This document shows positions 25,477 through 56,586 of a stretch of 64,000 nucleotides of DNA, piece by piece. The DNA is taken from assembly GCF_001815935.1 (NCBI RefSeq), contig NZ_KV823416.1:1-64000 (forward strand), written 5' to 3'. The position numbers and the translations under genes are program-made. The DNA is from Corynebacterium sp. HMSC04H06 (GTDB taxonomy: Bacteria > Actinomycetota > Actinomycetes > Mycobacteriales > Mycobacteriaceae). Each line of letters begins with the position of its first letter. Position 1 is the stretch's first letter. The notes below the pieces were generated by a model. It was given only the letters and a program-made list of their open reading frames with translations. It was not told the origin of the DNA and ran no database searches.

Positions 25477-26163
25477 CTACCAGCTCTGGGCCAGATCCGC
25501 GTGCTGGCGGATCCAGGCGTGCATGGCGATGCCGGCCGCCACCCCCGCGTTGATGGACCGGGTGGAACCGAACTGGGCGATGGAACAGGTCATCACGGCC
25601 CCGTCCTGGGCGGATTGGCTCACGCCGGGGCCTTCCTGCCCGAACAGGAGCAGGCATTTCTCCGGCAGCTCGGCGGTCTCCAGCGGCACGCACCCAGGGG
25701 TGTTATCGATGGCCACGACCGTGAGCCCCGCCTGCACCGCCCATTCCAACAGCTGCTCTACCGTGTCGTGGTGGGTCAGGTGCTGGTAGCGGTCCGTGAC
25801 CATGGCGCCGCGGCGGTTCCAGCGGCGGCGGCCGACGATGTGGACCGTGTCCACCGCGAAGGCGTTGGCCGTGCGCACGACCGTGCCGATATTCGAGTCG
25901 TTCTCGAAGTTCTCAATGGCGATGTGCAGGCTGTGGCGCCGGCTATCGATGTCGGCGACGATCGCCTCGCGCCGCCAGTAGCGGTAGGCGTCCACCACGT
26001 TACGGCGGTCACCTTCGGCCAGCAGCTCCGGATCGTAGCGCTCTGCCTCCGGGCCGGTGGGCCACTGCCCTTCCCACGGGCCGACCCCGTGCCGGCCCTC
26101 GTTCCATTCGGTGGGGCCGGGCTGTTGGTCGACTTCGGTGCCGCGGGCGTCCGGCTTAGGCAA
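25477..26163 (-). CDS. SpoU/TrmH-type RNA 2'-O-methyltransferase
   Basis: A 228-residue SPOUT methyltransferase. Motif 1 is IENFENDSNIGTVVRTANAF, motif 2 LLFGQEGPGVS and motif 3 SIAQFGSTRSINAGVAAGIAMH, together forming the S-adenosylmethionine knot. The RNA target (tRNA or 23S rRNA) cannot be told. TTG 26163 is chosen as start: GGAGG lies about nine bases upstream within pyrE, and the coding region overlaps the pyrE stop by eight bases, the coupled layout also seen in C. glutamicum. A longer frame exists but would lie inside pyrE. Confidence 0.87.
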   Translation of the reverse strand: MPKPDARGTEVDQQPGPTEWNEGRHGVGPWEGQWPTGPEAERYDPELLAEGDRRNVVDAYRYWRREAIVADIDSRRHSLHIAIENFENDSNIGTVVRTANAFAVDTVHIVGRRRWNRRGAMVTDRYQHLTHHDTVEQLLEWAVQAGLTVVAIDNTPGCVPLETAELPEKCLLLFGQEGPGVSQSAQDGAVMTCSIAQFGSTRSINAGVAAGIAMHAWIRQHADLAQSW

Positions 26164-26701
26164 GGTCGAGGTCCTCCAGACCCAGCAGGAAGCGGTACTC
26201 CAGGCCCTCTGCCGAAATCGTCTGGTCCGCACCGGTGGCTCGATCCACGACGGTGGCAATACCGACGACCTCGGCGCCGGCCTCGCGCAGCGCGGCCACA
26301 GCGGTCAGCGGGGAGTTGCCTGTGGTGGTGGTGTCCTCGACGACTAGGACCTTCTTGCCTTCCACGCCGGCGCCCTCGATGCGCCGCTGCATGCCGTGCT
26401 TCTTGGCCTCCTTGCGCACCACGAAGGCGTCGATCGGGCGGCCGTCCGCGTGCATGATGGAGGTGGCCACCGGGTCCGCGCCCAGGGTCAGGCCGCCGAC
26501 GGCGTCGAAATCCCAGTCCGCGGTCAGCTCGCGCAGCAGCGCGCCGATCAGCCGGGAGGCCTCGTGCTGCAGGGTCGCCCGGCGCAGGTCGACGTAGTAG
26601 TCCGCTTCCTTACCCGAGGACAGAGTCACCTTGCCATGCACGACGGCCAGCTCCTTGACCAGCTCGGCTAGTCGGCTCTTCTTCTGCTCGTCCAGGTTCA
26701 T
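26156..26701 (-). CDS. pyrE: Orotate phosphoribosyltransferase
   Basis: A 181-residue type I phosphoribosyltransferase that joins orotate and PRPP to OMP in pyrimidine synthesis. KVTLSSGKEADYYVDLRR at the N-terminus is the orotate-site signature, FVVRKEAKKHGMQRRIEG holds the catalytic loop lysines, and VLVVEDTTTTGNS is the PRPP-binding motif. The length is standard. It is followed by the coupled methyltransferase gene. Confidence 0.96.
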   Translation of the reverse strand: MNLDEQKKSRLAELVKELAVVHGKVTLSSGKEADYYVDLRRATLQHEASRLIGALLRELTADWDFDAVGGLTLGADPVATSIMHADGRPIDAFVVRKEAKKHGMQRRIEGAGVEGKKVLVVEDTTTTGNSPLTAVAALREAGAEVVGIATVVDRATGADQTISAEGLEYRFLLGLEDLDLA

Positions 26702-43675: not shown

Positions 43676-44086
43676 CTATGCCGGGCGGTGCTTGCCACCG
43701 CGGCGCGGGGACCACATGACCACGGAGGTCGAGCGCGGCACGTGGACTAACTCTCCGCGCTGCGGCTGGCTGCTGCGCTTTTGTAATTCGGCGCGCAGCT
43801 GCGCGACCTCGTTTTCCAAGTCGTCGCGCTCGGCGGCCAGCTTGTCGCGCTCCTCGGTGAGCTCGATGATCGCCTTGATGCCGGCCAGGTTGACCCCGTC
43901 TTCTTGGGAGAGGTTCTGGATCTTGCGCAGCATCGAGATATCCCGGTCCGAGTAGCGACGACCGCCGCCACTCGTGCGGGCCGGGGTGACCAGCCCCAAA
44001 CGGTCGTAGGTACGCAGCGTCTGGGCGTGCATACCGGACAGTTCCGCGGCTACGGAGATAACGTACATGCTAGAAAACTCGTTCAT
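43676..44086 (-). CDS. hspR: Heat-shock repressor HspR
   Basis: A 136-residue MerR-type regulator. YVISVAAELSGMHAQTLRTYDRLGLV is the helix-turn-helix and RRYSDRDISMLRKIQNLSQEDGVNL the wing and linker. A coiled coil of Glu/Arg/Leu repeats (about residues 75-110) drives dimerisation, and the tail is basic. HspR binds HAIR operators with DnaK as co-repressor; HAIR matches are found upstream of dnaK and clpB here. It follows dnaJ by 12 bases as the last gene of dnaK-grpE-dnaJ-hspR. Confidence 0.95.
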   Translation of the reverse strand: MNEFSSMYVISVAAELSGMHAQTLRTYDRLGLVTPARTSGGGRRYSDRDISMLRKIQNLSQEDGVNLAGIKAIIELTEERDKLAAERDDLENEVAQLRAELQKRSSQPQRGELVHVPRSTSVVMWSPRRGGKHRPA

Positions 44087-44098
44087 AGCTATTCACCC

Positions 44099-45289
44099 CT
44101 AGTTCCGCGTGGTATCCCCGGCCCATCCGGCGCGGGGATTGAACCCGGAGTCCTTCTCCGCCTGGGCGTAGGAACGCAGCGCGCTCGAGGCGGCCGCGTC
44201 CAGGTTGTTCGGCACCTTCACTTGGACGATGACCAGCAGGTCGCCGGCCTTGCCGCCCCGGGTCGGGATGCCGCGGTTGCGCACGCGCAGCGTCCGGCCG
44301 TCCGGCGTGCCCGCCGGGACCTTGACGCGCACCGGACTATCTAGGGTCGGCACCGTTATGGTGTCGCCCAACGCTAGTTCCGCGAAGGAGACCGGCACGG
44401 TGATTTCCAGGTCGTCGCCCTTGCGGCTAAAGACCGCATCGGGTTTCACGTGCACGGATACGAACAGGTCGCCGGCCGGGGTGCCGTTGGGGCCGGCCTC
44501 GCCCTGGCCCGCCAGGCGCACCTTCTGACCGTCGATGACGCCCGCCGGGATGCGCACGGTGATAGAGCGGGTGCGGTGAACGGTACCGGTGCCATTGCAG
44601 GTCTGACACGGATCGGTGACGGTCTGCCCGGTGCTTCCGCAGTTCTGGCAGGGCGCAGAGAACCCGAAGCTCCCGCGGTTTTCCGAGCTAAAACCGGTAC
44701 CGTTGCACTGCGTGCAGGTGGTGGTGTGCCCCGTCTTCGACCCCGATCCGTGGCAGGTGGTACACGGGGCCTCGCCGCTCAACTGCAGCGGGATGGTACT
44801 GCCCTTGGCGGCCTCGCGGAACTCGAGGGTTATTTCCGTTTCGACGTCCGCCCCGCGCGTCGGCCGAGCTGCGTGGCCAGCACCACCGCCGCGGTTGAAA
44901 ACGCCACTGAAGATATCCCCAAAACCACCGCTTCCAGTTTGTCCAGCGTTCCCGAAGAGGTCGGAGAGGTCGAAGTCTTGCGCTCCGTGCGTTTGGCGAA
45001 ACCCGCCGGGAAATCCGGCGCCTCCTGCCCGGCCAAAACCGCCGCCCCTGCGCAGCATGGCCTTAAAGTCGTCGTACTCCTTGCGTTCTTTCTCGTCGGA
45101 AAGGACGTCGTACGCCTCGGCGGCTTTCTTAAACTTCTCCAGCGCCTCCGGGTTGTCCGGGTTGGCGTCCGGGTGGTTTTCCCGGGCTAGCTTGCGGTAA
45201 GCGTGCTTAATCTCGCTAGCGCTCGCGGACGAGGAGACCCCCAGATCCGCGTAATAATCTTTGTCTGCCCATTCTGGTTTAGCGCTCAC
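44099..45289 (-). CDS. dnaJ: Co-chaperone DnaJ
   Basis: A 396-residue type I J-protein. The J-domain occupies residues 8-75, with the HPD motif in [10 protein letters not shown]; a Gly/Phe-rich linker follows. Four zinc-binding repeats are seen: [24 protein letters not shown] and CQTCNGTG. The C-terminal substrate domains end near residue 360. The start is a GTG with a strong AAAGGAGG site. A terminator-like hairpin separates it from grpE, so its expression may be set partly by readthrough or its own promoter. Confidence 0.96.
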
Positions 45290-45364
45290 TGGGCATCTCC
45301 TCCTTTCGAGGTGAAATAGTGTTTCTCATCCTCGCTATATGGTTACTAAAAACTTTATCTAAGA

Positions 45365-45408
45365 CTAAATAAAAAGGGGCGCCGAGGATAACCTCCCCCG
45401 GCGCCACC
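45365..45408 (-). terminator. Terminator between grpE and dnaJ
   Basis: GGCGCCG (45378-45384) pairs with CGGCGCC (45399-45405), with a possible inner GAGG/CCTC stem. On the minus strand the stem is followed by CCTTTTTATTT. It lies immediately after grpE, inside the heat-shock cluster. Confidence 0.8.
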
Positions 45409-45416
45409 ATTAGGAA

Positions 45417-46153
45417 CTAGCTCTGCTCGGACCCGTGCGAGTCCGCGCCGCCGTCCACCTCATCCGTGGATGCGGACGAATCACTGGGGTCGGCGATGAT
45501 AACCATCGCGTTGCGCACCAGCCGGTCGTCGACGCGGTAGCCGCGTCGCAGCACGGTGCCCAGTACCTTCTCATCGCCACTGGAGAGATCCTGCACTGCC
45601 TCGTGGATCTCTGGGTCGAAGGCGTCGCCCTCTTCGCCGAAGGCGGCGAGCTTCTGGCCCTGCAGCACGTTGTTGAGCTTGTCGGCCATAGACTTGAGCG
45701 GTCCGTCCTCCAAGTCCCCGTGCTGGCGGGCCAGCTCGAGGTCGTCGAGGATGGGCAGCAGCTGTGCGATGACCTGCGCCTTGGCGTTGTCAATAACACC
45801 CTGGCGCTCGCGCTCGGTCCGGCGGCGGTAGTTGGTGTACTCCGCGTTCAGACGCTGGAGGTCCTCGGTGCGCTCGGCCAGCTGTGCCTCGAGGTTCGGC
45901 TCGCCGGCCGCCTCGGGGTCGACGTCGCCCTCGACGTCGGCCAGGGCCTCGTCGACATCTGCCTCGAGCGTGGGATCTAGCACGGCCTCTTCGGCGGCGT
46001 CCGCCTCCGCGTCGGCCTGGGCTTCCGCGCCTGCGGCCGACTGGGCATCGGCAGCCTCGGCGGCAGCTTCCTCAGCACGGTCCGCCGAGGTAGCCTCCGG
46101 ATCGGTGTTGTCCGGGTCGCCGGGGTTATCCGGCATTCCGTTGAACTGAGTCA

Positions 46154-46154
<1 letters not shown>
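45417..46154 (-). CDS. grpE: Nucleotide exchange factor GrpE
   Basis: A 245-residue GrpE. The first 85 residues are an acidic, Ala/Glu-rich tail, longer than usual. The coiled coil ([25 protein letters not shown]) leads into the helical and beta head domains, with [14 protein letters not shown] and [24 protein letters not shown] as the GrpE signature. It releases ADP from DnaK. It overlaps dnaK by one base (TAATG), so the two subunits are translationally coupled. Confidence 0.95.
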
Positions 46155-48016
<1,862 letters not shown>

Positions 48017-48094
48017 AGTCTTTTCTCCTTCTAAGTGTTTGTTTCTCTTAAGTTGATTGCCTGTGGCTCAACTTCTGATGAGCACGTCAGCCAC

Positions 48095-48147
48095 TCTAAC
48101 AGAAGTTTGCTCCAAGTTGTTCCAAACCTGAGTGCTGGCCACTCAAT
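48095..48147 (-). promoter_or_regulatory. SigH-type promoter and HspR operator upstream of dnaK
   Basis: On the minus strand GGAACA (48123-48118), 17 bases, GTTAGA (48100-48095) fits the SigH pattern. Just upstream, CCTGAGT (48127-48133), seven bases, ACTCAAT (48141-48147) matches HAIR at 12 of 14 positions. An extra AAGTTGA/TCAACTT dyad lies at 48050-48074 in the leader. Confidence 0.78.
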
Positions 48148-48330
48148 CTACACAACGCACCAACCCTCAAAGTTGTTCCCGCTCGACTCAACTCTTTAAA
48201 ATATCCCTGTTTATCCAGCTCAGAGCACATCGTCCACCTTCGGTTCCGCGATGGTGTCCGAAAGTTACCTCCAACAGGTATCCGAAAGAGGATAGGCAAG
48301 AGGCTCAAAAGTCGGCAGACTGTAAAGCAC

Positions 48331-48392
48331 AGCAGCCGGGAACGGTCGCAACAGCAACGGGACTGGCTGGTTTTCGACCACCCCGGGCTGCT
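48331..48392 (+). promoter_or_regulatory. Inverted repeat in the presumed leader of the small acidic gene
   Basis: AGCAGCCGGG (48331-48340) pairs with CCCGGGCTGCT (48382-48392) with one bulged C, enclosing 41 bases. It ends 45 bases before the small gene at 48437. It could shape the 5' leader; no known motif was recognised. The remaining part of 48148-48330 shows nothing I can name. Confidence 0.4.
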
Positions 48393-48436
48393 CCTACGCG
48401 AGAGATTCAGATTCTTCTACACCGAAAGGAACTATT

Positions 48437-48628
48437 ATGTTCGACTTCCTGACCGACCTCAGCTCCGCTATCGACTTCGAGCAGCTCATCAAGGGCATCT
48501 CCGACCTGATCGACAGCTCCTCCGAGGGCACCGAGGGCGAGGGCCTGTCCTCCGCTTTCGAGGGCCTGTCCTCCTCCGAGGACTCCGCTTCTGAGGCTGC
48601 CGAGTCCGCCGAGGCTGCTTCCAAGTAA
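48437..48628 (+). CDS. Small acidic amphipathic protein (possible cell-wall channel peptide)
   Basis: A 63-residue protein preceded by an AAAGGA site and followed by a strong inverted repeat, so it is a stand-alone gene. The first 28 residues (MFDFLTDLSSAIDFEQLIK onwards) can form an amphipathic helix; the rest is almost only Ser, Glu, Ala, Gly. There is no signal peptide or cysteine. Size, acidity and helix recall corynebacterial PorH/PorA channel peptides, which also lack signal peptides, but I see no clear sequence match. It lies directly upstream of the kinase-peptide-regulator cassette and could be a target or partner of it. Confidence 0.6.
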   Translation: MFDFLTDLSSAIDFEQLIKGISDLIDSSSEGTEGEGLSSAFEGLSSSEDSASEAAESAEAASK

Positions 48629-48676
48629 GCCTTTAACCTCCACTAAATAGAGGCACAAGACTCTTTCACTGAACTT

Positions 48677-48745
48677 CCCCCGCCGCCCGAGTTCGCGTCG
48701 CTCCCAAAAAGAGCACCGCATGGGACAAAACTCGGACGGCGGGGG
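48677..48745 (+). terminator. Long inverted repeat after the small acidic gene
   Basis: CCCCCGCCG-C-CCGAGTT (48677-48693) pairs with AACTCGG-A-CGGCGGGGG (48729-48745): 16 of 17 positions, loop of 35 bases. It starts 48 bases after the stop and is followed by a T/C-rich run, probably a terminator. The rest of the 322-base gap up to the kinase gene shows no further gene. Confidence 0.65.
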
Positions 48746-48950
48746 TTCCTCTATCTCCAGCCCGTGGCATCACACAACACCGGCGCCAGCACCACAGCGC
48801 TAACGATGCCACCTGCCGCACCGCACCACGTCCACCTTCCTGATTCCACCACTCCGACTCCGCCTAGCTCGGACGATCGCTTACGGACTAACGTTGAATA
48901 CAGAACTTTCATCAAGACCGCACCTCGTTCCGCTCGCCAAAGGAGTCCGC

Positions 48951-50135
48951 ATGTCAGCACTACGACCCCTGCCTGCCCTGCGCAAGCTCCGATCCGTCAT
49001 GACGCTGGAACGGGCCGCCATCGTCGTGGGCGCCTTCTGCCTACTACTCACCCTGCTCGGAGCGGCCATGGAGCCGCCGGAGCTCCAGTTGGTCTCCGTA
49101 GTGTTGGGAATCGCGCTGAGCTGCGCGACCGTGGGGGCCTACCGCTACCCACTGGCGATGTCGGTGTTCTACCTCATTATCTGGATGACCGCCTCGCTCA
49201 GCACTCACAACACCTACCTCAGCTGTATCTTTATCGTTCCGGCCTTGGCCGCCATCGTGGCCTACCACGGGCGCGTGTGGCTCACCGCGGGCGTCGCCCT
49301 GACGTTGTGGGTAGCCGGCCTCATCGATCCGGTCTCAGACCAAACCACCGTCAACCTCCCCACCGCCGCGACCTGGGGCATGTACGTCAGCCTGGGCGTC
49401 GTCATCGGCAGCGCCTACGGGCACTCGGCGCGACGCTACAAATCAGCCATGGTGGAATGGGACCGCGACGTGCACAGGCGGCAAAACGATCTCGCCGAGA
49501 TGCTGCATAATTCGGCCGTGTCCAGCATGACGGTCAACACCATGCAGCTGGAGGCCCTGAGCCTGGAGTACGCCAAGGATCCCAAGCTGGCCGAGCGCCT
49601 CGATGAGCTCAGCGACTCCATGCGCTCGACGATGTCCGAGATCCGCGCTTTGACCAGCGTCCTGCGCAGCGCCAACGACGATCCCCAGTCGGTGCTCGGC
49701 ATCGGCGACAAGACCGGCAAGAAACCCAGCACTTTCGCGAAGCTGCTGACCGAAGAAGCCGCCCGGCTCCAAAAGCTGAACCGCCAGCCCAAGACGACGG
49801 TCTTGCTAGATGATTTCGATCCCAGCTTCAGCCAGGACGTTCTCGACGCGGTCGCCGCCATCGTCAACGAGGCCTGCATCAACGCCGTCAAGTACTCCCC
49901 GCCCAGCGCGGGAATTAGCCTGACCGTCCGGCCCTATCTGGGATGGATTAGCCTGACCATTTCCAACCCGATTGCGGCTTCCCGGGTGGCCGACAATTCC
50001 ATGTCCTCGGGCATCGGCCAAGCCTCCATGCACCGGATCGCCACCACCATCGACGCCAAGCTCGCCAGCACGGAAAACGACGGCAACTGGGAGGTCACGT
50101 TATCTCTTCCACCACATAGCTATACACGTCGGTAA
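48951..50135 (+). CDS. Six-TM sensor histidine kinase
   Basis: A 394-residue kinase. Six hydrophobic segments fill residues 17-40, 47-63, 68-84, 89-104, 108-125 and 140-157, with only short loops outside, a polytopic sensor like AgrC-type peptide receptors rather than a PAS or Cache sensor. The phosphoacceptor region is NDLAEMLHNSAV with His186, in the NarL/DesK-type dimerisation family. The ATP site has NEACINAVKYS (Asn306, Asn311) and SGIGQAS (G-box 353-359). ATG 48951 follows AAAGGAG; an upstream ATG is less likely. The next genes are a small exported peptide and the partner regulator. Confidence 0.88.
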   Translation: MSALRPLPALRKLRSVMTLERAAIVVGAFCLLLTLLGAAMEPPELQLVSVVLGIALSCATVGAYRYPLAMSVFYLIIWMTASLSTHNTYLSCIFIVPALAAIVAYHGRVWLTAGVALTLWVAGLIDPVSDQTTVNLPTAATWGMYVSLGVVIGSAYGHSARRYKSAMVEWDRDVHRRQNDLAEMLHNSAVSSMTVNTMQLEALSLEYAKDPKLAERLDELSDSMRSTMSEIRALTSVLRSANDDPQSVLGIGDKTGKKPSTFAKLLTEEAARLQKLNRQPKTTVLLDDFDPSFSQDVLDAVAAIVNEACINAVKYSPPSAGISLTVRPYLGWISLTISNPIAASRVADNSMSSGIGQASMHRIATTIDAKLASTENDGNWEVTLSLPPHSYTRR

Positions 50136-50147
50136 TCTCACATAACC

Positions 50148-50177
50148 TTGGCGAATATCATTGAGCTAAGTTATGCT
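50148..50177 (+). promoter_or_regulatory. Possible promoter and dyad before the peptide gene
   Basis: TTGGCG (50148-50153) and TATGCT (50172-50177) are spaced by 18 bases. An interrupted dyad, CATAAC (50141-50146) and GTTATG (50170-50175), overlaps both elements and could be the binding site of the response regulator. Confidence 0.4.
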
Positions 50178-50232
50178 AACGCTTGTTATCATCTCAACCA
50201 CTCTCTAGAACTCTCCCTGGAAAGGACCCCTA

Positions 50233-50397
50233 ATGAACGCTCTCGCAGGTTTCCTCGCCCCGCTGCTCCTTTCTTCCCAGCTGATCGGCGGCGCCCCCGC
50301 CCTTAGCTCCCAGGACGCACCGGTTACCGTCGCCCCGTACGAGTCCGCCGCTGAGAAGGCCTTCGGCTGCCCGTCCCCGTTTTGCCCGGGCCGGTAA
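50233..50397 (+). CDS. 54-residue exported peptide between kinase and regulator
   Basis: An unreported-looking small gene: ATG 50233 with AAAGGA seven bases upstream, stop TAA 50395-50397. Residues 3-19 are hydrophobic (ALAGFLAPLLLSSQLIG), followed by GAPA, a plausible signal peptidase site near residue 23, though the N-terminus lacks a positive charge. The mature part would be about 31 residues, ending AEKAFGCPSPFCPGR, with Cys46 and Cys51 enclosing Pro-Ser-Pro-Phe. A disulfide or other closure would give a small rigid ring. The gene sits between a six-TM kinase and its regulator and overlaps the regulator start by 16 bases. A signal peptide for the kinase is inferred; a structural envelope peptide is the alternative. 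Confidence 0.72.
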   Translation: MNALAGFLAPLLLSSQLIGGAPALSSQDAPVTVAPYESAAEKAFGCPSPFCPGR

Positions 50398-51050
50398 TTA
50401 ACCTCCTGGTCGTCGACGACGACCCGCTGGTACTCGAAGCGTTAGGACACTACTTCGCTAGCGCGGACGACATGAAGGTGGGCGCTACCGCCGAAAATGG
50501 AAAAGCCGCCCTTGCTCTGCTCGGGGAGCAAGATTTTGACGTCATCGTGGCAGATATTCACATGCCGGAAATGGACGGCACGACACTGCTGCGCGAGGTC
50601 GGGGAGATGGACAATCCCCCGGTCTTTATCGCGATGACCGCGATGGACAATGACGACACCCTCTTGGATGTCATGTCCCATAAGGCAGCCGCTTATATCC
50701 TGAAGAGCTCGAAGCCCGCCTATATTTTGGAAACGGTGCGCGAAGCCGTCAAGGGCGGCACGGTGGTCACGCCACAGTCACTGACCCGCTTGGTCGAGCA
50801 CCTGCCGGAGCTCCAGAACACCACCACTATGCGCCCGACGGCCGCGTTGGATAGCCACGATATTCCCCCGGCGCAGCTGCGGGTGTTGGAGCTGCTGTGC
50901 GAGGGGCAGTCGAACGCGGAGATCGCGGCATCGACGGGCTATGCCGACGGCACGATTAAAAAATACATCTCTTACCTGCTGGCCGAATTCCAGGCCAAGT
51001 CGCGCCTAGATCTGGCTATTAAGGCACTCAAGGCCGGCTACGGCCAGTAG
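50382..51050 (+). CDS. LuxR/NarL-family response regulator
   Basis: A 222-residue two-component regulator. The receiver domain has VVDDDP near residues 10-15, the phosphoacceptor Asp58 in VIVADIHMPEMDG, the Thr of IAMTAMD and the Lys of AYILKSS. The C-terminal GerE-type helix-turn-helix spans about 160-218 (PPAQLRVLELLCEGQSNAEIA, then GTIKKYISYLLAEF). No ATG is available; TTG 50382 gives the expected N-terminus and lies inside the end of the peptide gene, implying translational coupling. Its partner is presumably the kinase at 48951. Targets could include the cassette itself and putA downstream. Confidence 0.87.
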   Translation: MPGPVINLLVVDDDPLVLEALGHYFASADDMKVGATAENGKAALALLGEQDFDVIVADIHMPEMDGTTLLREVGEMDNPPVFIAMTAMDNDDTLLDVMSHKAAAYILKSSKPAYILETVREAVKGGTVVTPQSLTRLVEHLPELQNTTTMRPTAALDSHDIPPAQLRVLELLCEGQSNAEIAASTGYADGTIKKYISYLLAEFQAKSRLDLAIKALKAGYGQ

Positions 51051-51701
51051 TGACTGCCCACCCCGTCCTACCCCCTAGGTCGGGACTTCCTGCGGAAACA
51101 AATCAGCCTTCCTACCCCCATTAGGCATTTTTGCCTACACACTAGCGTCAGTTGTGTGGGTTTCTTATAATGACCGCAATAGCAAGCAGTATTACACCCA
51201 CCCGCTTGTCGTAGCTTAGGTCACAAGGGGGGTAGGGTGGCTGCACAACATAACGGTCGTTCCGCCCGGGGCGTCCGCAACCACGAGTCTTGGTCTTAGC
51301 TCTAGTGCCTGAGTGCTAACTCCAGACCTAGTTCTATCTCTTTGTCCTCGAGCCAGGTAAGGAAGGTGAGCGTTGAACGTCTTTCTGGCGCGGATCCGCC
51401 GCGCGAGTGACCGGCCTCCCGTATAGACAGCCGGCACACTCCGCCACAAAGATTGGTCCAACCTGCGGCACGCGCACCCGCGTGCACGGCAAGCGTATGG
51501 CTGCTTCCCCGCCAGAGACTTCTGCCCCACCCCTGTTGGGGCGGCGTTCGACGCGGCGGAAGCGTTAAATAACACTTTCCATTTCCACCCGGCCCGGGTA
51601 ACACCCCGGGACGCTCGACTAACCCGCACGCCAGCTGGGGATAGCCGCAGCGGGCCACCATCACCGGCCCGGGTCTCACCGCACACAGAGGTAGAACCAC
51701 A
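51051..51701 (+). promoter_or_regulatory. 651-base non-coding region and leader upstream of putA
   Basis: No gene was found. A small hairpin TAGGCA-TTTT-TGCCTA (51122-51137) follows the regulator gene. A perfect minus-10 TATAAT lies at 51166-51171, which would give a putA leader of about 520 bases. That leader is rich in GC stems, for example GCCCCA/TGGGGC (about 51531-51549) and CCCGGGT/CCCCGGG just after 51590. No known riboswitch, RNase P, tmRNA or SRP RNA signature was recognised. Confidence 0.5.
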
Positions 51702-54700
51702 ATGACTTCTCCTGCCAACACCCGTTTGCCCGAATCCGACGACGTCGAAGCCATCGTCGAATCCGCCGTCCGCCAGGCCCGCACCTGGCTCGCCGCTAGT
51801 GCTAACGAGAAAGACCAGGCCACCGAGCAGCTCGCGGACCTGCTGCGCGACACCGACGGCGTCAAGTTCACCATGGACTTCGTCGACCGCGTTATGCGCC
51901 CGGAAGACGACAAGGTCGCAGCCCACGCGCTGAAGAAGATTAACGAAAACTTCGATCCGGCCTTCCTGGGCAAGATCAACGCCTCCCTGATCGGCCTGGG
52001 CGGTTTCTTCGGACCGATCCTGCCGAACCTCGTGATGCCGCTGGCCCGCATGCGCATGCGTCAGATGGTCGGTCACCTGGTCGTCGACGCTGAGTCCGAC
52101 GCCCTGAACAAGACCCTGGACAAGGCCGCCGAGTCCGGCGAGCAGCTCAACCTGAACCTGCTGGGCGAGGCCGTCCTCGGTGAAGACGAGGCCCGCTCCC
52201 GCGCCGAGCGCACCCTGGTTCTAATCCGCAACCCACGCGTGACCTACGTGTCCGTGAAGGCGTCTTCCATCGTGGCCCAGCTTAACCCGTGGGACATCGA
52301 CGGCTCCGTCGAGCGCCTCAAGGAGCGCCTCCGCCCCCTCTACGAGGAGGCCGCCAAGCGCAGCCCCAACGTCTTCATCAACCTGGACATGGAGGAATAC
52401 CACGACCTCCACCTGACCATCCGTCTGTTCAAGGAACTGCTCAGCGAGCCGGAATTCAAGGAGCTGGAGGCCGGCATCGTTCTGCAGGCCTACCTGCCAG
52501 ACACCTTCGCCGCCCTACAGGAGCTGGCCGACTTCGCCAAGCAGCGCGTGGCCGAAGGCGGCGCCAAGATCAAGATCCGCCTGGTCAAGGGCGCCAACCT
52601 GTCCATGGAGCACGTCCAGGGCGAGGTCCACGGCTGGCCGGTCGCCCCCTACATCACCAAGCCGGAGGTCGACGCCAACTACTTCCGCCTGCTGGACTAT
52701 ATCCTGCGCGAAGAGTTCGCTGATTCCGTGCGGATTGGCGTGGCCACCCACAACCTCTACACCGCCGCCCTGGCCGCGGAGCTGGGCAAGAAGCGCGGGG
52801 TCATGGACATGATGGACTCCGAGATGCTGCAAGGCATGTCCCCGGCGCAGCAGGAGGCCGTCCGCAAGGTCTTCGGCGGCCGCCAGATCCTCTACACCCC
52901 GGTCGTGCACATGGAAGACTTCGACGTCGCCGTGTCCTACCTGGTCCGCCGCCTGGAGGAGAACTCCGCCCCGCAGAACTTCCTCTACGCGCTGTTCGCC
53001 CCGGACGAGGCCCGCAGCGATCACCTGACCCCGCTGCAGGATCAGGAGGCCCGCTTCCGCCGCGCCGTGGAAGACCGCTGGGATACCTTCGCCGGCCCCC
53101 GCCGCCAGCAGGACCGCAACGCGGAGGAAGGCCAGGGCCGCCAGGCCCCGGTCACCGGTCGCTTTGTCAACGAGCCGGACACCGACCCGGCACTGCGGGC
53201 CAACCGCGAGTGGGCCCTGAAGTGGCTGGACACCGACCCGGGCGAGCACACCGTTACCCAGGTCACCGATCCGGCCGAGGTGGAAACCGCCGTGGCCAAG
53301 GCTAAGACCCTGGCCGATAACTGGGGTTCGAAGACCGGTCACGAGCGCGCTGAGGTCCTGGAGACCATCGGCGATCGCCTGGCCGATTACCGCGGCCGCC
53401 TGGTCAGCGTCATGGCTCACGAGGCCAACAAGACCGTAACCCAGTCTGACCCGGAGGTCTCCGAGGCGATCGACTTCGCCACCTACTACGCGCACTCCGC
53501 GCGCCTGCTGGACGAGGCCCGCTCTAAGTTCACCCCGAACCGCGTGACCGTGGTGACCCCGCCGTGGAACTTCCCCGTGGCCATCCCGGTCGGCGGCGTG
53601 CTGTCCTCCCTGGCCGCGGGCTCGACCGTCATCATCAAGCCGGCCCCGCAGGTGGTCCACTGTGCCCAGGTCGCCGTGGAGGCCATCCACGCCGGTCTGA
53701 AGGAGCACGGCCTGGACACCGACCTGGTCCAGCTGGTCTACACCGATGAAAGCGACGCGGGCAAGACGCTCATCTCCCACGAGGACGTCGACGCCGTCAT
53801 CCTGACGGGCGCTTCCGACACCGGCGCGCTCTTCCGCTCCTGGCGCCCGGAGATGAACCTGATGGCGGAGACCTCCGGCAAGAACGCGCTGATTATCACC
53901 CCGGCCGCCGACCCGGACCTGGCCATCCAGGACCTGTACCTGTCCGCCTTCGGCCACTCCGGCCAGAAGTGCTCCGCGGCCTCCCTGGTCATCTTCGTCG
54001 GCGCCGCCGGCACCTCGGAGCGCCTGCGCAACCAGCTGCTGGACTCCGTGCGCACACTGATCCCGGGCCCGGGCTACGAGGTCAAGACCACCATGAACGG
54101 CCTGGCTGAGCCGCCGAGCGAGAAGCTCTTCCGCGGCCTGACCCAGCTGGAACCGGGCGAGAAGTGGCTCATCAAGCCGGAGAAGCTCAACGAGGAAGGC
54201 ACCCTGTGGTCCCCGGGCATCCGCGACGGCGTCCAGCCGGGCTCCTGGTACCACCTCAACGAGTGCTTCGGCCCGGTGCTGGGCATCATGCACGCCGAGA
54301 CCCTGGAGGAGGCCATCGAGTGGCAGAACTCCACCGGCTACGGCCTCACCGGCGGTATCCACTCCCTGGATGACGAGGAGATCGACTACTGGATCGACCA
54401 CGTCGAGGTCGGCAACGCCTACGTCAACCGAGGCATCACCGGCGCCATCGTCCAGCGCCAGTCCTTCGGCGGCTGGAAGAAGTCCGTCATGGGCCCAGGC
54501 GCCAAGGCCGGCGGCCCGAACTACGTGCCGCAGATGGGCACCTGGGAGGACGGCGAGCTGCGCGCCCGCGACGTGGACATCAAGGCCAACATCGCCGGCG
54601 AGCTGCGCCAGTGGACCGACCGCCTGGACTCCGTCCTAGACGAGGGCGACGCCGCCTGGCTGTGGCGCGCCGCGGAGCTGGATCAACTGGCCTGGCAGGA

Positions 54701-55166
54701 AGAGTTCGGTCGCAACCACGACCGCACGGCCCTGATTTCGGAGGCCAATATCTTCCGCTACCGCCCGCTGCTGTCGGCCCTGTCCGTCCGCGTCGGCGAG
54801 GGCTACAAGGTCCGCGACGTCGCCCGCCAGCTGCTGGCCACCGCCATCACCGGCACCCCGATCGACATCTCCGCCCCGGCGAATATCGCCGCGGACCTGC
54901 GCGACATGGGCTTCCGCGCCCGCACCGCCAGCACCGAGGAGTTCGCCAACGAGGTCGCCGAGATGTCCTCGGCCCGCATCCGCGCCCTCGGCGCAGTGGA
55001 GCAGTCGGTTCAGGAGGCCGCGGTCAAGTCCAACTCGGTCGTCCTCGACCAGCCGGTCCTGGCCGATGGCCGCCGCGAGCTGCTGCCGTACCTGCTGGAG
55101 CAGGCCGTCTCCGTGACCATGCACCGCTTCGGCATCATCCGCGAAATCGGCGATATCCGCCGCTAG
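51702..55166 (+). CDS. putA: Bifunctional proline dehydrogenase / P5C dehydrogenase
   Basis: A 1154-residue flavoenzyme that oxidises proline to glutamate. The proline dehydrogenase barrel fills about residues 100-470, with IKIRLVKGANLSMEH and VRIGVATHNLY. The aldehyde dehydrogenase domain follows (about 510-1000): PPWNFPVAIPVGG, Glu723 in NLMAETSGKNALI and catalytic Cys757 in GHSGQKCSAASL. No N-terminal ribbon-helix-helix is present, so unlike E. coli PutA it should not bind DNA. The C-terminal 150 residues are the extra domain of long PutA proteins. Length matches C. glutamicum PutA. The long leader and the regulator upstream suggest controlled expression. Confidence 0.96.
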   Translation: MTSPANTRLPESDDVEAIVESAVRQARTWLAASANEKDQATEQLADLLRDTDGVKFTMDFVDRVMRPEDDKVAAHALKKINENFDPAFLGKINASLIGLGGFFGPILPNLVMPLARMRMRQMVGHLVVDAESDALNKTLDKAAESGEQLNLNLLGEAVLGEDEARSRAERTLVLIRNPRVTYVSVKASSIVAQLNPWDIDGSVERLKERLRPLYEEAAKRSPNVFINLDMEEYHDLHLTIRLFKELLSEPEFKELEAGIVLQAYLPDTFAALQELADFAKQRVAEGGAKIKIRLVKGANLSMEHVQGEVHGWPVAPYITKPEVDANYFRLLDYILREEFADSVRIGVATHNLYTAALAAELGKKRGVMDMMDSEMLQGMSPAQQEAVRKVFGGRQILYTPVVHMEDFDVAVSYLVRRLEENSAPQNFLYALFAPDEARSDHLTPLQDQEARFRRAVEDRWDTFAGPRRQQDRNAEEGQGRQAPVTGRFVNEPDTDPALRANREWALKWLDTDPGEHTVTQVTDPAEVETAVAKAKTLADNWGSKTGHERAEVLETIGDRLADYRGRLVSVMAHEANKTVTQSDPEVSEAIDFATYYAHSARLLDEARSKFTPNRVTVVTPPWNFPVAIPVGGVLSSLAAGSTVIIKPAPQVVHCAQVAVEAIHAGLKEHGLDTDLVQLVYTDESDAGKTLISHEDVDAVILTGASDTGALFRSWRPEMNLMAETSGKNALIITPAADPDLAIQDLYLSAFGHSGQKCSAASLVIFVGAAGTSERLRNQLLDSVRTLIPGPGYEVKTTMNGLAEPPSEKLFRGLTQLEPGEKWLIKPEKLNEEGTLWSPGIRDGVQPGSWYHLNECFGPVLGIMHAETLEEAIEWQNSTGYGLTGGIHSLDDEEIDYWIDHVEVGNAYVNRGITGAIVQRQSFGGWKKSVMGPGAKAGGPNYVPQMGTWEDGELRARDVDIKANIAGELRQWTDRLDSVLDEGDAAWLWRAAELDQLAWQEEFGRNHDRTALISEANIFRYRPLLSALSVRVGEGYKVRDVARQLLATAITGTPIDISAPANIAADLRDMGFRARTASTEEFANEVAEMSSARIRALGAVEQSVQEAAVKSNSVVLDQPVLADGRRELLPYLLEQAVSVTMHRFGIIREIGDIRR

Positions 55167-55218
55167 GGACGGTGCCAGCGTTTCCGCGGCCGCCGCTTGT
55201 ATGGCATAGTTGGTTCCT

Positions 55219-56586
55219 ATGGATAGCCAGCATGACGATATAAGCAGCGGGCAGGCGTCCGCCTCCGGCCAGGCGGACGCCCAACCGGCCAAGGAAACCG
55301 CTCAACAAGACGCGAGGAAGGACCAGACCACCACCCTGGTCAGCCAGGACGACCACGGCCTGGGCCGGGAAACCGCGCGGGATACGCCCGGCGACCCAGA
55401 CAAGAAGGCCCAGGTACTGAGCGCGGATCTGAAGTCCGCCGCGCGCACCTCCCTGCAGCTCATCGCTGTCATCGCGGGCGTGGCCGTCATCGGCTACCTC
55501 CTGCGGTTTATCTGGGTCGGGCTCCTGCCGGTCATCCTGGCCATTTTGGTCAGCACCGTGCTCTTTCCCATCACGGCCTGGCTGCGCCATCACAAATTCC
55601 CGCGCGCCCTCGCCGCGGTGACCACTCTGCTGGCGTTCTTGCTCATCTTCGTCGGCATCTTCTCCGCCATGGCCCCGGTGGTCTCCAACCAGGGCGCCAC
55701 GCTGGTCAGCCAGGCCGAAAGCGGTATCAATGAGCTGGGCCGCTTGGTGGAAGAATCCCCCGTCAACGTCGATAGCGGGCAGCTCGAGTCCGTCATGGAC
55801 GACGCCGTGAACTTCCTCAAGGGGCAGGCCAGCAACATCGCTACCGGCGTGATGACCGGCGTGTCCGCGGCCAGCTCCATCCTGGTGGCCTTCGTCATCA
55901 TGCTCTTCGTGACGTTCTTCATCATCAAGGACGGCGACAAGTTCCTGCCGTGGCTGCGCAAGTACACCGGCTCGGCAGCCGGCTGGCACATCACGGAGCT
56001 AGGTTCGCGCATCTGGTCCACCCTGGCCGGGTTCATCCAGGCCCAGGCCGCCGTCGCCTTCGTGGACGCCGCACTCATCGGTCTGGGTCTGTGGGCCCTG
56101 CAGGTGCCGCTGGCCTTCGTCATCGCCGTGGTGACCTTCTTCGCCAGCTTCATCCCGATCATCGGTGCGGTCACCGCCGGCGCCCTGGCCGTCGTCATCG
56201 CGCTGGTCTCTAATGGCTTAACCAATGCCCTGCTGGCGCTCGCCCTCATCGTCATTGTCCAGCAGGTGGAGGGCAACCTCCTACAGCCGCTGCTGCAGTC
56301 CAAGGCCATGGGCCTGCACGCCGCCGTGGTCCTACTGTCCGTGACCATCGGTTCAACCCTGTCGGGCATCATCGGCGCCTTCCTAGCCGTGCCGGTGGCC
56401 GCCACCATCACGGTCATGCTGCGCTACTACGCCGAGATGACCGGCCTACGCTCCGGCGAGATCGACCCGGACGAGCTGGACATCTCCACCGGCGAGAAGC
56501 AGAAGGACAAGGACTCCGATAGCCAGGAGCCCACCCCGCGCCAAAAGGTCGCTGAGCTCTTCCACTCCATGAGCCCGCAGCGCTAA
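55219..56586 (+). CDS. AI-2E family (PerM-like) transporter
   Basis: A 455-residue membrane protein. A polar N-terminus of about 80 residues, rich in Gln/Asp/Ala, precedes roughly eight hydrophobic segments. FASFIPIIGAVTAG and QQVEGNLLQPLLQSKAMGLHA are the defining C-terminal motifs of the AI-2E/PerM family, whose members export small signals or act as Na+(K+)/H+ antiporters. The tail is charged. ATG 55219 has CATAGT in minus-10 position and no ribosome site, so the message may be leaderless. Substrate not predictable. Confidence 0.85.
   Translation: MDSQHDDISSGQASASGQADAQPAKETAQQDARKDQTTTLVSQDDHGLGRETARDTPGDPDKKAQVLSADLKSAARTSLQLIAVIAGVAVIGYLLRFIWVGLLPVILAILVSTVLFPITAWLRHHKFPRALAAVTTLLAFLLIFVGIFSAMAPVVSNQGATLVSQAESGINELGRLVEESPVNVDSGQLESVMDDAVNFLKGQASNIATGVMTGVSAASSILVAFVIMLFVTFFIIKDGDKFLPWLRKYTGSAAGWHITELGSRIWSTLAGFIQAQAAVAFVDAALIGLGLWALQVPLAFVIAVVTFFASFIPIIGAVTAGALAVVIALVSNGLTNALLALALIVIVQQVEGNLLQPLLQSKAMGLHAAVVLLSVTIGSTLSGIIGAFLAVPVAATITVMLRYYAEMTGLRSGEIDPDELDISTGEKQKDKDSDSQEPTPRQKVAELFHSMSPQR

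Follow-up and report, generated by a model that had tools for sequence, protein, structure and literature searches.

What is a 54-codon open reading frame (ORF) doing between the gene of a membrane-bound histidine kinase and that of a LuxR-type response regulator? The question is raised by a locus of Corynebacterium sp. HMSC04H06 at positions 48,951 to 51,050 of the window, by which we mean the whole 64,000-nucleotide stretch of contig NZ_KV823416.1 that was analysed (G000 in our numbering of genomes, contig C25; genome size 2.38 Mb). The original prediction, made from the letters of the window, was an autocrine or quorum-sensing system, or self-monitoring of an exported peptide. On balance we consider it probable that the three genes constitute a self-contained peptide-sensing cassette in which the peptide would be the ligand of its own kinase.

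A conserved small gene between kinase and regulator

The kinase gene (48951..50135, + strand) encodes a protein of 394 amino acids (aa), the proposed peptide receptor, with a HisKA_3 domain (PF07730, 27.9 bits against a cut-off of 24, E 3.6e-6) and a HATPase_c match under its cut-off. It is followed by a spacer (50136..50232, +) holding the palindrome GTTATGCTAAC (50170-50180) and a ribosome site, AAGGA (50222-50226), which lies six bases 5′ of the ATG of the small gene (50233..50397, +). The putative 54-aa precursor has a hydrophobic N-terminus, the C-terminal core APYESAAEKAFGCPSPFCPGR and the end FGCPSPFCPGR, in which C46-PSPF-C51 would form a ring; as predicted, two cysteines enclose Pro-Ser-Pro-Phe, and both are kept in relatives. 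The regulator (50382..51050, +; 222 aa, LuxR/NarL type) carries Response_reg (PF00072, 82.9 bits) and GerE (PF00196, 31.5 bits) domains, both above cut-off. Its start at TTG 50382, already noticed in the original prediction, is the sole start codon of its frame ahead of the receiver domain and lies inside the peptide gene, the two genes overlapping by 16 bases. Both His186 of the kinase (LHNS) and Asp58 of the regulator are invariant and are likely phospho-acceptors, and the combination of a HisKA_3 kinase with a receiver/GerE regulator places the pair in the HPK7/NarL type.

Six transmembrane helices had been predicted for the kinase. A single-sequence AlphaFold model does contain six N-terminal helices (19-38, 43-62, 66-81, 86-106, 110-124 and the start of 136-206) that fit six membrane helices, but only five hydropathy segments pass the threshold in the window's kinase, and its 24 aligned homologues have three to seven at the same threshold. 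With a predicted local distance difference test score (pLDDT) of 48 the model, made without an alignment, is poor and a hint at most. Given six helices, the outer loops would measure about 5, 6 and 13 residues.

Of 242 genomes of the genus, 89 hold relatives of the kinase, and 21 of these (the window's own included) reach at least 49% identity. A regulator profile built from 26 sequences matched 157 of the 242 at E <= 1e-45, weaker paralogues among them. The census, a sample of the matches listed, comprises 132 distinct regulator loci in 120 genomes; 70 had been fetched via kinase matches (L009-L078), which favours complete cassettes, and two more plus a further 60 came from the regulator-profile list. 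Two loci were dropped, L067 with too short an upstream stretch and L059 with a score below 220 bits, leaving 130 to be scored for an ORF of at least 25 codons located from -500 to +40 of the regulator and ending in C.{3,9}[WFY]C.{0,8}. Such a Cys-ring ORF lies just upstream of the regulator in 105 of the 130 loci (99 when Trp is required), counts that are not independent, since the loci are related and the motif was picked after the first loci had been seen. The controls gave 5/130 on the opposite strand, 26/2600 in mononucleotide shuffles, 1/30 at related regulator loci of other genera and 0/7 at paralogous loci of the window's own genome, by which a chance ORF is ruled out. Among the 62 loci fetched without a kinase match, 49 have the ORF; at L095, one of the 105, the motif is present and a stop codon separates it from the signal part. 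The original prediction staked itself on conservation of the frame and of both cysteines in related species, and it has held: the 54-codon gene with its ribosome site is a real gene, conserved across Corynebacterium loci.

A peptide profile of 65 sequences, run over the same 242 genomes, returned as its best 98 matches (to E 2.4e-5) sequences that each lie, by eye, no more than about 3 kb from a regulator locus. Signal sequences inflate its tally of 221/242 genomes at E <= 0.01, which was set aside, and the profile barely sees the short-ring relatives of the window (best E 6.5e-4 in G221 and 2.2e-4 in G144). By status, the 132 loci divide into 105 with the peptide between kinase and regulator, 7 downstream, 1 convergent, 2 variants, 16 with none and 1 set aside. 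A peptide locus is present in 107 of the 120 census genomes, six of which have more than one, and later additions brought four more peptide genomes (G047, G096, G125 and G236), so that at least 111 of the 242 sampled genomes carry the peptide, G095 with a cut-off copy included.

The linkage of peptide and cassette survives rearrangement, as the seven downstream loci and the convergent one keep the peptide nearby. Its distance downstream of the regulator is about 2.6 kb in six genomes (G005, G006, G083, G090, G194 and G235) and about 0.15-0.2 kb in G091; in G044 peptide and kinase converge on the regulator from the other side. At the six 2.6-kb loci (L321-L326, from G083, G006, G194, G090, G005 and G235, respectively) opposite-strand genes for exported proteins of about 200 aa stand between regulator and peptide and were apparently inserted into the cassette region. 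The two variants have Ser for the second Cys (L042) and the end CRYHDNVLCWRKK (L058). On a midpoint-rooted regulator tree, in which L059 and both variants were scored as peptide-present, Fitch parsimony makes presence of the peptide the root state, with 11 changes. Nine of the 16 peptide-less loci have no kinase detected upstream in the fetched stretch, L062 among them having its kinase downstream of the regulator; L245 (wider: L336) retains a kinase remnant among transposase-like genes, the second G143 locus has a weak peptide match containing a stop codon, and G018 has a decayed cassette. At L238, L240 and L246 (wider: L338, L337 and L340) a regulator of the family without nearby kinase or peptide stands, by eye, beside hypF-like and ABC-transporter-like genes. 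Kinase and regulator of G214 enclose a 28-codon ORF (L342, 3648-3735 in regulator orientation) that has C-x8-C, ends CENIPSLPYCRK and is without a signal sequence; it may be a stripped-down or decaying version of the peptide.

Shape, selection and co-divergence of the peptide

The peptide ORF is found at all 21 loci of the window's own group (L009-L029, the window and its 20 nearest relatives), where FGCP[SA]P[FW]C and two to four further residues form its end. Farther loci combine a signal sequence with other rings, e.g. FFTCPGNVWCR, FSCKTYHYPWCRD, FSCRKNPTLPWCS, LSCTYYPMRPWCPNASRYA, FRCSTSPQRWWCG and FECGGLLGRLWC. Across 104 precursors with script-chosen start codons (38-88 aa long, median 60), the two cysteines are spaced by 8 residues in 72, 4 in 21, 7 in 8, 5 in 2 and 10 in 1, and 0-7 residues follow the second Cys. 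That Cys is preceded by Trp in 98 precursors, by Phe in 3 and by Tyr in 3; position -2 from the first Cys is occupied by Phe or Leu in 95, and position -4 by Asp in 51. The near-invariant positions are thus the two cysteines, the Trp before the second and the Phe/Leu before the first, and nothing else; in 65 aligned peptides, Met1 and the two cysteines are all the invariant residues.

Most species have a signal sequence, with a hydrophobic N-terminal window in 99 of the 104 precursors, Lys or Arg near the N-terminus in 79 and AxA in 73. Cutting at the first [AV]xA, a crude rule that could score 80 of the 104, gives mature lengths of 16-68 (median about 40) and about 31 for the window, whose peptide has, by eye, a possible signal-peptidase site near Ala23. 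No Pfam or NCBIfam family matches the window's small protein at E <= 1; the peptides gave scattered weak matches and nothing more against Pfam, NCBIfam and the PDB, and none at E <= 0.01 against PHROGs.

The peptide is under purifying selection. In 17 hand-picked groups of near relatives, covering 62 of the 104 loci, the ratio of nonsynonymous to synonymous substitution rates (dN/dS) is 0.06-0.50 in 17/17, with 0.14 in the group formed by the window and its two closest relatives; the corresponding ratio of proportions (pN/pS) is 0.23 in the last 22 residues vs 0.38 before them. Co-divergence was assessed at 86 of the 104 loci, the others having no H-box recognised by the script (16) or no kinase in the sequence fetched (2). 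With catalytic domain and regulator held constant, peptide-core distance correlates with that between kinase membrane domains at a partial r of 0.36, which exceeds all 500 permutations; the partial r is 0.20 for the kinase catalytic domain and 0.03 for the regulator. A ligand of the kinase membrane domain would give such co-divergence.

A possible signalling peptide and its alternatives

We conclude that the peptide partners the kinase at the protein level after probable export, its ring most likely closed by a disulfide. From sequence we infer the following course, from export, cleavage, disulfide and binding to the direction of the signal and the target genes. The precursor would be exported by Sec and cut by signal peptidase, leaving, by the crude rule above, a mature form about 16 to 68 residues long (about 31 in the window). 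In the exoplasm an oxidoreductase, probably of the MdbA type, would then join the C-terminal Cys pair into a disulfide ring; 4 to 8 residues separate the two cysteines, and an aromatic residue, nearly always Trp, stands beside the second. This ring would dock on the six-helix membrane domain of the kinase of the same cassette and change its activity, which would set the phosphorylation of the LuxR-type regulator; the regulator may also act on the peptide promoter. Two Thioredoxin_4 (DsbA-like) genes are present in the window's own genome, and exported proteins of C. diphtheriae have MdbA as their oxidative-folding catalyst (PMC9974433).

The peptide is probably a secreted, species-specific pheromone, a reading favoured because the peptide is small, would have no membrane anchor after cleavage and carries a free C-terminal ring, and because this ring varies from species to species and even where one genome has two cassettes. 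A broader proposal, which we advance tentatively and would not yet call probable, is a genus-wide form of Corynebacterium quorum sensing in which a Sec-exported disulfide-ring pheromone with an aromatic-Cys end is read by six-helix HisKA_3 kinases, without any dedicated protease, transporter or modifying enzyme and with species-specific rings, sometimes as two parallel channels per cell.

Several observations weigh against a peptide ligand. The window's peptide has Phe, not Trp, before the second Cys. Its whole group (L009-L029) is without Lys or Arg in the hydrophobic N-terminus, which consequently is not a textbook signal peptide; this is the main doubt about export there. The window's peptide does have the hydrophobic core. 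Kinase-regulator pairs can do without the peptide, since in four groups (L047/L050, L223/L227, L228 and L241) the pair persists although an intact peptide is missing. The catalytic-domain correlation also exceeds all 500 permutations, and the co-divergence uses related sequences with modest partial correlations, to which shared ancestry can contribute. The palindrome upstream of the peptide, finally, does not recur in the genome (3 sites vs 4 for a reversed control).

The same gene arrangement would result if the exported peptide stayed with its producer as a cell-bound accessory or inhibitor, tuning its own kinase and reporting the state of the envelope or of secretion, not neighbours. Its closeness to the regulator gene (with script-chosen starts, 46 of 103 pairs overlap, 44 lie within 30 bases and 13 farther apart) would then fix the stoichiometry, and corynebacteria have three-component systems, EsrISR and MtrAB-LpqB, the latter in the accessible text of a 2012 inventory of corynebacterial two-component systems (PMC3353115). 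We nevertheless regard such a role as unlikely: the conserved part is just the 20 or so C-terminal residues, and the ring varies by species, as for a recognised ligand. All accessory proteins of this kind known to us are, moreover, larger or membrane-anchored. The overlap or close spacing with the regulator start would also suit a translation-coupling leader, a small ORF that merely feeds ribosomes into the regulator gene. That role is very improbable in view of the conservation at the amino-acid level, the dN/dS below 0.5 and the signal sequence, and we reject a simple leader ORF on this ratio together with the loci whose peptide gene comes after the regulator gene.

Some bacteriocins are small Cys-ring peptides made with a signal sequence, which speaks for an antimicrobial peptide regulated by its own two-component system. 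Across clades, however, no immunity, transport or modification gene of at least 90 aa recurs beside the cassette at the 21 loci compared over wider stretches, and no Pfam, NCBIfam or PHROGs family matches, so that this origin, too, has very little probability. The invariance of the two cysteines, alone apart from Met1 in the 65 aligned peptides, is what a redox reporter would show, the Cys pair being a disulfide switch through which the kinase reads exoplasmic oxidative folding; the DsbA-like genes fit this as well, as does the need of C. matruchotii, and of C. diphtheriae at 37 °C, for MdbA in growth (PMC9974433). Yet Trp and a variable loop would be superfluous for a switch alone, and the Cys spacing differs by clade (4, 5, 7, 8 and once 10), which leaves the redox reporter improbable. 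Our preferred explanation remains the peptide as ligand of its kinase, probably a pheromone. If this is true, an unrecognised peptide signal exists in close to half of the Corynebacterium species sampled (at least 111/242), and the cassette is a source of ready orthogonal signalling parts. The rings are short enough to synthesise, so that stimulus, specificity and cross-talk between species are directly testable.

Searches of an open full-text library aimed at such a peptide or system listed no paper describing one, as judged by title and the start of the abstract. A 2016 review of actinobacterial quorum sensing, in the text accessible, gives LuxR-type proteins alone for Corynebacterium (PMC4748050), and the genus goes unmentioned in the part of PMC8895600 that could be consulted. 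Nor does the word "peptide" occur in the accessible text of the 2012 inventory, whose authors were by then aware of studies on C. glutamicum systems and on C. diphtheriae HrrSA/ChrSA alone (PMC3353115).

Genomic setting and comparison with known systems

Wider stretches were compared at 21 loci for ORFs of at least 90 aa. Near relatives share the neighbours of the cassette; across clades, no such gene other than kinase and regulator recurs beside it, be it for a transporter, a protease or a modifying enzyme. By eye, the genes flanking the cassette in the window and three widely seen relatives are dnaK-like on one side and putA-like on the other. In the window the interval from dnaK to the kinase contains, directly upstream of the kinase, an acidic Ser/Glu-rich ORF of 63 aa (48437..48628, +), for which a match is seen ahead of the kinase at 20 of the 21 loci L009-L029. 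It has no family match; from its size and composition we presume it to resemble small corynebacterial pore proteins, and it could be a partner or target of the cassette.

A consensus promoter scan called none upstream of the peptide, where the kinase-peptide spacer may hold a separate promoter, and Rfam gave nothing at the gathering threshold within 44000-56000. At seven of the 104 loci (L054, L055, L064, L065, L068, L092 and L189) an element GGTGG[AT][GC]AC.TT.G. lies about 100-130 bases before the peptide start and is a candidate regulator site in those clades. At L254 and L255 (G224 and G123) the cassette regulator is directly followed by a second LuxR-type regulator gene on the other strand and then by another shared gene, possibly making two adjacent two-component systems. 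Elsewhere in the window, ARAGORN called a candidate tRNA-Gly (CCC) at 26043-26122 (+), on the strand opposite to ORFs 25477-26259 and 26156-26701 and inside the longest form of the former.

At this sampling the cassette looks confined to Corynebacterium, as the best regulator scores outside the genus are 192 bits in a family sample (401 genomes, 31 genera, Corynebacterium included) and 195 bits in a class sample (394 genomes), whereas nearly all cassette regulators score about 224-335 bits. A plasmid search gave 3 matches at E <= 1e-20, all below 33% identity and none from Corynebacterium.

The agr systems combine a polytopic kinase with tiny outer loops and, beside the kinase gene, a gene for a short small-ring peptide, a layout that AgrBDCA of staphylococci and other Firmicutes shares with the present cassette. 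Unlike agr, however, the kinase here is of the HisKA_3 type, the output is LuxR and not LytTR, and the ring would be closed by a disulfide, that of agr peptides by a thiolactone. AgrB (PF04647) has 0 matches in the window's own genome, and among 14 control genomes C. glutamicum alone gave one, below the cut-off. With no AgrB match and GerE (LuxR) in place of LytTR output, agr membership is ruled out, and the AgrC-type kinase of the original prediction survives as a functional comparison only. The peptide-signalling idea of the original prediction is partly supported, by the conserved, linked peptide gene, mostly with a signal sequence, and by its co-divergence above all with the kinase membrane domain.

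Like the cassette, the corynebacterial MtrAB-LpqB and EsrISR systems (we take EsrISR to be CgtSR7) add to a kinase-regulator pair the gene of a third protein, exported or in the membrane. According to the accessible text of the inventory, LpqB is a lipoprotein and CgtS7 carries a PspC domain (PMC3353115); the window's kinase has no PspC match, and its peptide, being without a family match, gives no link to EsrISR- or LiaFSR-like systems. The same text describes CgtSR6 (Cg3060-Cg3061) of C. glutamicum as a HisKA_3 kinase of 380 aa with a LuxR regulator of 206 aa (PMC3353115), which we infer to be locus L341 of G065, where a 206-aa regulator lies, by eye, near a purA-like gene. It differs from the cassette in its regulator score (188-194 bits vs about 224-335) and in its regulator-kinase order; no peptide is present in the 5 kb seen, and G065 has no peptide-profile match better than E 0.001.

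ComQXPA of Bacillus shares with the cassette a polytopic HisKA_3 kinase with a variable membrane domain, a short, variable precursor and a LuxR-type regulator, the type of ComA. The B. subtilis ComX precursor has 52-73 aa and a Trp near the C-terminus, and the comQXPA census lists none outside Firmicutes (PMC4008528). In our 104 precursors a Trp stands beside the second Cys in 98, with Phe in the window, and Pfam gives no ComX match. Unlike ComQXPA, the cassette has two invariant cysteines, mostly a signal sequence and no isoprenyl transferase (ComQ) gene alongside: the flanks are, by eye, dnaK-like and putA-like, and no extra gene is shared across clades. The best reading by analogy is that the cassette would work like ComX-ComP-ComA or AgrD-AgrC-AgrA while being a member of neither.

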